Positions 597-14,725 of a stretch of DNA of 22,906 nucleotides are shown here, in pieces. The notes below the pieces were generated by a model. It worked only from the letters and a program-made list of their open reading frames with translations. It did not search any database and had not been told where the DNA came from. How positions within the stretch are numbered: position 1 is the stretch's first letter; the number at the start of each line of letters is the position of its first letter. Both the position numbers and the translations under genes were made by a program. The DNA comes from a virus, in IMG/VR virus record IMGVR_UViG_3300035698_013918, positions 1 to 22,906 of that record. One strand, written 5' to 3'.

Positions 597-1316
597 ATGA
601 AAAAAGTAACTGTTAAAAAGATTTTAGAATGGGGGCCATGTCCTGAATATACCGAGGAAAAACTGAAAGAGCTCTTTGGGGGTAAGCGGTATGGATCTTT
701 GGAGGATGTTTTAGAAGCAGATATTCCAGCTGCGGATAAATTGTGGGTTGCGCTGCGAGATTATTTTTTTACAAAAAGACAAACAGCCATGCTTTGCCAC
801 TTATTCGCAAAACAATCGTTGGTAATTTACGAAAAATACTACCCGGACGATAAGCGGGTAAGAGATGCCGTTTATGCAGCTAAGAGCTACGCAGAGGGTA
901 AAATATACCGCCGGAAACTGGCTGCCGCCAGGGCTGCCGCCAGGGATGCCGCCAGGGCTGCCGCCAGGGCTGCCGCCAGGGATGCCGCCAGGGCTGCCGC
1001 CAGGGATGCCGCCATCCCTGCCGCCATGGCTGCCGCCATGGATGCCGCCAGGGCTGCCGCCAGGGATGCCGCCATCCCTGCCGCCATGGCTGCCGCCATG
1101 GATGCCGCCAGGGCTGCCGCCAGGGATGCCGCCATGGATGCCGCCAGGGATGCCGCCATGGATGCCGCCAGGGATGCCGCCATGGATGCCGCCAGGGCTG
1201 CCGCCAGGGATGCCGCCATGGATGCCGCCATGGATGCCGCCAGGGATGCCGCCAGGGATGACCAAGTACAAATTGTGAAAAAATATATAAAAGAAATTGG
1301 TGTAAATAAATCATAA
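597..1316 (+). CDS. Imm-5-like protein with a long Ala-rich tetrapeptide-repeat tail
   Basis: I chose ATG at 597 over the upstream in-frame TTG at 576 because AGGAGGGG ends three bases before it, giving 239 aa. Residues 1-108 form a helical domain (KLWVALRDYFF, LCHLFAKQSLVIYEKYYPDD, VRDAVYAAKSYAEG). This resembles the small domain that phage and bacterial databases call 'putative immunity protein' (Imm-5-like), often found with Ala-rich tails; that match is from memory. Residues 109-220 are exactly 28 tetrapeptides of the form [D/A/P]AA[R/M/I], predicted to be one long alanine-rich helix with Asp and Arg side chains. A basic 19-residue tail (KKYIKEIGVNKS) follows. The DNA under the tail is a 12-bp minisatellite, so copy number may vary. 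No catalytic motif is visible and the function is unknown. Confidence 0.8.
   Translation: MKKVTVKKILEWGPCPEYTEEKLKELFGGKRYGSLEDVLEADIPAADKLWVALRDYFFTKRQTAMLCHLFAKQSLVIYEKYYPDDKRVRDAVYAAKSYAEGKIYRRKLAAARAAARDAARAAARAAARDAARAAARDAAIPAAMAAAMDAARAAARDAAIPAAMAAAMDAARAAARDAAMDAARDAAMDAARDAAMDAARAAARDAAMDAAMDAARDAARDDQVQIVKKYIKEIGVNKS
921..1256 (+). repeat. 12-bp minisatellite, 28 tandem units, coding
   Basis: There are 336 bp of uninterrupted 12-bp units. Each has the invariant core TGCCGCCA, with variation only in the first two and last two bases (units read GATGCCGCCAGG, GCTGCCGCCATG, CCTGCCGCCATG and so on). A higher-order 60-bp period is superimposed: positions 980-1075 are identical to 1040-1135. 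The array is in frame with the host gene and keeps several other frames free of stops on both strands. Near identity at synonymous positions points to recent expansion by slippage or unequal exchange. Confidence 0.97.
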
Positions 1317-10554: not shown

Positions 10555-10622
10555 TACGAGATAATAACATAATTACCGGATACGGATAAGACCAGGTGTT
10601 TTTATAACACCAGGAGCTTTTG

Positions 10623-14667: not shown

Positions 14668-14676
14668 TAAATACCA

Positions 14677-14702
14677 CCGTATTTTACAACCGTATTTTAC
14701 AA
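14677..14702 (+). repeat. 13-bp tandem duplication in an intergenic gap
   Basis: CCGTATTTTACAA occurs twice head to tail (14677-14689 and 14690-14702) after a TAG TAA double stop. The remaining bases to 14725 hold the next ribosome binding site (GCAGGTGATGTGAA). Confidence 0.92.
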
Positions 14703-14725
14703 CGGGCAAAGGCAGGTGATGTGAA

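Follow-up and report, generated by a model that had tools for sequence, protein, structure and literature searches.

The closest characterised protein to the one described here is gp54 of mycobacteriophage Tweety (EF536069, PHROG 3416). In this protein, unique ends surround around 40-48 AAxx units. Tweety mutants escaping the defence of a Phrann or MichelleMyBell prophage have gained or lost units and, in the model proposed, a tuned gp54 locks the Phrann gp29/gp30 complex (PMC9262239; PMC8549241). The number of units also varies in 12-bp steps among close relatives of gp54, and variation at replacement sites between units was remarked for gp54 alone (PMC2884959). Counter-defence tuned by the number of units has been shown in Tweety gp54 only (PMC9262239, PMC8549241); as far as we found, this mycobacteriophage protein is the one described example and its mechanism is obscure. 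In-gene tandem repeats of variable number also occur in VR2 of bbp36, a dispensable gene of Bordetella phage BMP-1 (PMC2884959). A third reference point is provided by the bacterial immunity proteins of the Pfam families Imm5_like (PF21805) and Imm5 (PF14423). For Imm5, a role as the immunity protein against DYW deaminase and CdiAC toxins has been predicted (PMC3482391). The structure 7JTU contains the DNA-deaminase toxin SsdA of P. syringae complexed with its all-helical immunity protein SsdAI (PMC7901873). Nothing specific was found in the literature on Imm5 phage arrays or on DUF7666.

The stretch analysed (hereafter the window) is a complete virus record of 22,906 bp from a tailed phage, with genes for the terminase small subunit (at 2879), the terminase large subunit (3938), the portal (7214) and the major head protein (11616). 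The gene studied is an open frame running from ATG to stop on the + strand (597-1316). A Shine-Dalgarno-like AGGAGGGG was read on the same strand at 587-594, ahead of the start codon at 597. The 239-aa product consists of four parts, all encoded on the + strand. A variable N-terminal head (residues 1-58; 597-770) was delimited by alignment and an Imm5-type core (residues 59-108; 771-920), corresponding to the first two helices of bacterial Imm5-like proteins, by hhalign. They are followed by an Ala-rich array of 28 tandem 12-bp units encoding xAAx (921-1256; TRF and unit list) and by a C-terminal cap (residues 221-239, DDQVQIVKKYIKEIGVNKS; 1257-1313; alignment). The array is thus flanked by unique N- and C-terminal parts. 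The CxPC-like start of the head is common to L006, L008, L026 and L040 in the alignment, and the best tblastn matches of head plus core were L062/L063 (33% over 107 aa, E 5e-16). The cap sits where relatives have a QxxxLxxxI or WQxxRLxxYL cap (alignment and relatives' tails). About 1.6 kb separate the gene from the small terminase gene downstream, and no early region was recognisable at this position. Its neighbours at 1-588 and 1331-2307 matched no Pfam family with confidence, the upstream one being truncated by the contig end, and no toxin or defence gene was seen adjoining it.

The array had been described in the earlier note as 28 exact, in-frame 12-bp units at 921-1256, and this was reproduced by TRF and by a unit list in codon phase, with an invariant GCC GCC core; the count of 28 comes from a single assembly. 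With a period of 12, TRF gave 28.2 copies at 923-1260 (0% indels, score 494); a period of 60 was also found. In codon phase the unit is [GCT/GAT/CCT]-GCC-GCC-[AGG/ATG/ATC], which yields six unit types: AAAR, DAAR, DAAM, AAAM, DAAI and PAAM. All 56 internal Ala codons are GCC and all 10 unit-initial Ala codons are GCT; in the remaining contig GCA, GCC, GCG and GCT are used roughly evenly. Every difference between units changes an amino acid. This regularity is far above chance. The 60-bp higher-order repeat reported earlier is equally exact: 980-1075 is identical to 1040-1135 over 96 bases at an offset of 60, giving a five-unit duplication on the + strand at 980-1135. A 24-bp two-unit repeat (DAAM-DAAR) occurs three times in units 18-23 (1125-1196, + strand; unit list). 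ATCCCT at 1014-1019 and 1074-1079 (units 8/9 and 13/14) exactly reverse-complements the common hexamer AGGGAT; with its neighbour it closes a perfect 7-bp hairpin, CAGGGAT-GCCGCC-ATCCCTG, at 1001-1020, with a copy at 1061-1080. The hairpin is probably a template-switch scar, and the pattern suggests that the simplest history of the array would be one template switch followed by the 60-bp duplication.

This organisation resembles that of Tweety gp54 in several respects. In both proteins a 12-bp unit encodes two alanines and two variable residues, unique ends flank the array, the expansion is recent with variation at replacement sites, and there is a GC-rich island. They differ in the residues at the variable positions (Gly/Ser/Tyr/Trp in gp54 versus Arg/Asp/Met in the window), in the cap, and in the head, which is non-homologous. 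The window protein had no match to phrog_3416. A homology between the gp54-type head and Imm5 or the window head, suspected by eye, was unsupported by hhalign (0.2%). By its head the window protein therefore appears to lie outside the gp54 family. BMP-1 bbp36 VR2, compared by its description in PMC2884959, differs in that its element is 24 bp long and of another sequence.

Searches of phage records and viral contigs with the full protein gave no matches; BLAST's masking of low-complexity sequence and its strict seeds account for part of this, and we therefore turned to searches with a DNA pattern and with a core alignment. The array DNA pattern was found in 44 viral stretches, most of which encode array proteins and some unrelated K-A-A-A tails. 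An array-blind search with the core confirmed 203 viral places, 80 of which were kept, and 26 places in bacterial and archaeal genomes. The search for other Imm5-like proteins with array tails, suggested in the earlier note, thus brought up many viral contigs carrying head, core, xAAx array and cap. In most of the relatives read, from which the plan and the array sizes were taken, a variable N-terminal head precedes the Imm5 core, the xAAx array and an AExxWQxxRLxxYL-type cap. Array length varies widely across these related genomes, from none (L123) or two units (L052) up to 26 (L118), with 28 in the window. The variable residues are W, R, G, K and D in relatives and R, D and M in the window protein, whose rod is unusually long, Trp-free and Met-containing. 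Neighbouring genes of the relatives encode single-strand annealing proteins, exonuclease VIII, methyltransferases and primase. Counter-defence genes are common in such an early DNA-metabolism neighbourhood. Array proteins with unrelated heads were also found: L007, L012, L024, L030, L037 and L039 align with the head of Tweety gp54, with L012 giving a further match to phrog_13065 and a weak one to phrog_3416. A search with the large terminase gave a single relative, L047 (60% identical), in which no array gene was present in the 2.2 kb upstream. A search with the capsid protein gave none, and no close relative of this phage was present in the collections searched. In L062 / L063 (gene 2315-2914), a duplicated block spans the junction of core and array, with EATQKEMDAAWAAAR present three times; expansion therefore goes beyond pure 12-bp units.

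The low synonymous divergence from which a recent expansion had been proposed was borne out: the Ala-Ala codons of the 28 units show zero synonymous differences, and the codon uniformity of the relatives agrees. In 55 arrays, within-array codon sharing was 0.87 and 0.85 at the two Ala positions, compared with 0.30 for Ala codons in neighbouring ORFs of the same loci. The favoured Ala codon varies by phage (GCC, GCT, GCG or GCA), and agreement between arrays was 0.34 and 0.30. Arrays that use one codon, with this codon varying by phage, indicate that each array was recently multiplied while the peptide pattern is old; the arrays have thus been repeatedly re-expanded. The opposite situation, related phages sharing the same unit number with diverged codons, was contradicted by the relatives found. 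The idea that the repeat acts as a DNA site was ruled out, the codons differing among phages while the peptide pattern persists.

Length variation between isolates, also proposed earlier, was observed in relatives. L101 and L104 are 99% identical over 2.7 kb, and the gene in the two differs by a single 33-bp indel, in frame and located in the array; both are metagenomic assemblies, and L102, from a different sample, agrees with L104. Among cultured mycobacteriophages, the spans of gp54 homologues differ from that of Tweety by 18, 21, 24, 30, 32, 35 and 37 whole units. Diversity between units was then compared across 45 arrays of six or more units, among them that of Tweety gp54. It was 0.34 at positions 1+2 of the two variable codons versus 0.049 at Ala fourfold sites, so that replacement sites are about seven times more variable between units than synonymous ones, with the reservation that the register is set by the constant Ala, which favours this contrast. 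Replacement diversity was higher in 44 of the 45 arrays and lower in none (Wilcoxon p about 8e-9, related arrays being non-independent). The direction of the excess is robust, because fourfold sites are free of protein constraint. In the window, four of the 12 columns are variable and none of these is among the three synonymous ones, an outcome with an estimated chance of about 0.25. The window alone proves little, and the argument on synonymous change is therefore carried by the 45 arrays.

Because of the gp54-like organisation and the early DNA-metabolism neighbourhood of the relatives, we propose that the window protein may be an adjustable counter-defence (antitoxin-like) protein, with the gp54 design on an Imm5-type head and a target set by array length and composition; by analogy with gp54, we put this at about an even chance. 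As an accessory protein of the phage, it would combine a helical head of the Imm5 type with an expandable Ala-rich tetrapeptide rod and a C-terminal cap. Blocks of units of the 12-bp minisatellite would be gained and lost in frame by slippage or recombination, so that the spacing of head and cap and the residues along the rod could change rapidly. Head and cap would interact with a toxin or complex from a defence of the host or of a prophage, and the length and composition of the array would decide which target is neutralised, as in Tweety gp54. For the window protein we infer that the rod is helical, that expression is early, and that the protein acts in counter-defence and is tuned by length; this tuning would be carried over from gp54 by architecture and not by homology of the heads. 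Three points weaken this reading: the gene is sited ahead of the small terminase gene and in no recognisable early region, no toxin or defence gene was found adjoining it, and the gp54 head is unrelated.

The array could instead be a tolerated low-complexity linker undergoing neutral slippage, head and cap doing the work and length being meaningless. Relatives tolerate from 0 to about 28 units, units of 12 bp always preserve the frame, and the window array has no stop codon in any of the six frames. In L095 (gene near 2315-2870) the array is frameshifted midway and continues as GLRGLRGMLRG..., still open; the frameshift is survivable as an ORF because the repeats have no stop in other frames. 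However, an approximately seven-fold excess of replacement over fourfold variation in 45 arrays would not be expected from neutral turnover, most relatives retain the cap after the array, and unit number matters in Tweety gp54 (PMC9262239). A neutral linker is thus a possible but rather unlikely explanation.

The Imm5-type core bears both on the proposed counter-defence role and on that of a true immunity protein. Pfam Imm5_like (PF21805) matched residues 59-148 with 26.5 bits against a cut-off of 25. Because part of this match lies in low-complexity Ala sequence, the core was re-tested without the array. An hhalign comparison of eight head-plus-core sequences with seven bacterial or archaeal Imm5-like proteins gave a probability of 97.6% (E 4.4e-12), and by this comparison the window protein has the helix 1-2 core (LFAxxCAExVLPLFE..PDDxRPRxAIExAR). 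Residues 59-106 are thus homologous to helices 1-2 of the Imm5 fold. A bacterial-type Imm5-like protein is predicted to have five helices (pLDDT 89). Only the first two of them are kept in the window protein; in place of helices 3-5, with their conserved HxxxH region, it has the tetrapeptide array and a short cap. Modelled by AlphaFold from 16 sequences (pLDDT 70.8, pTM 0.37), the window protein is predicted to have helices at residues 105-156 and 162-237 that span the array. The long Ala-rich helix put forward in the earlier note is therefore predicted with modest confidence (pLDDT about 70), though with a break at the second proline. Prolines recur at unit position 1 in the arrays of L046 and L048 (AAWPAAWPAAGD), and two such units are present in the window; the recurrent prolines of L046 and L048 are difficult to reconcile with a single straight helix.

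In a fold search with the bacterial Imm5-like model, the best neighbour was 7jtu chain B (Z 9.8, 112 residues, 3.3 A; next 6.9), which we read as SsdAI from its helical match. SsdAI had no sequence match, and 7jtu_B resembled the bacterial protein and not the array protein (Z 3.8). According to the warning of the fold-search tool, a Z below about 13 can be coincidence for helical bundles; the resemblance is therefore a lead that may be due to chance. With the full array model as query, the fold search yielded nothing informative (E above 5, Z below 5). The Pfam match, the predicted activity of Imm5 against DYW deaminase and CdiAC toxins (PMC3482391) and the likeness between the bacterial fold and SsdA's partner in 7JTU would all suit a protein through whose Imm5 head the phage or prophage shields its host against an interbacterial toxin, a deaminase or the like, the array being a derived helical extension. 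Yet the window protein is without helices 3-5, array genes across phages adjoin DNA-metabolism genes and not toxins, and the bacterial proteins L141-L150 are without extreme array turnover. Despite its Imm5-like core, the window protein does not appear to be a canonical Imm5 immunity protein, and such a protective function is improbable.

The array, or its exact length, could also be an assembly artefact, since its 336 bp exceed typical short reads. Against this, arrays of comparable length recur across many independent contigs and also in finished genomes from cultured phages, the units differ among themselves and the reading frame is intact to either side, all of which makes an artefact very unlikely. 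A DNA-binding or structural rod (virion or scaffold) rich in Ala, Arg and Asp and unrelated to defence, for which the position upstream of packaging and head genes and the 17 Arg and 16 Asp in the 112-residue array could be cited, is hardly credible, the net charge of +1 leaving no basic DNA-binding tail, relatives lying generally away from structural genes and the sole characterised analogue being non-structural.

Returning to adjustable counter-defence, the occurrence of this array design with an Imm5-type head across some 200 viral contigs makes it a testable class, and the resemblance of the Imm5 head to a deaminase-immunity fold suggests the kind of target. More tentatively, Ala-rich tetrapeptide arrays might be a widespread modular 'tuner' placed on differing heads (Imm5, DUF7666-Imm5 and gp54 types), with rapid copy-number change in frame and selected diversity of units tracking variable toxin-based defences; the window protein would be an Imm5-headed case.

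Other repeats and an interrupted frame were noticed in the window. Another tandem repeat with a 12-bp unit, also in frame (TGGCAATCGTCA x 3.4), was found at 2818-2858 within a 42-codon ORF (2811-2939; MNLAIVMAIVMAIVMAVWQRFF...); this ORF, directly before the small terminase gene, could encode a small membrane protein. A small ORF at 2321-2548 contains one in-frame TAG (2375-2377) followed by a sensible 56-codon continuation, and could be a decayed gene, an assembly error or a case of read-through. Short direct repeats at 14672-14703 (13 bp x 2.5, TACAACCGTATTT) and 10586-10621 (18 bp x 2) lie near gene boundaries and are possibly regulatory.
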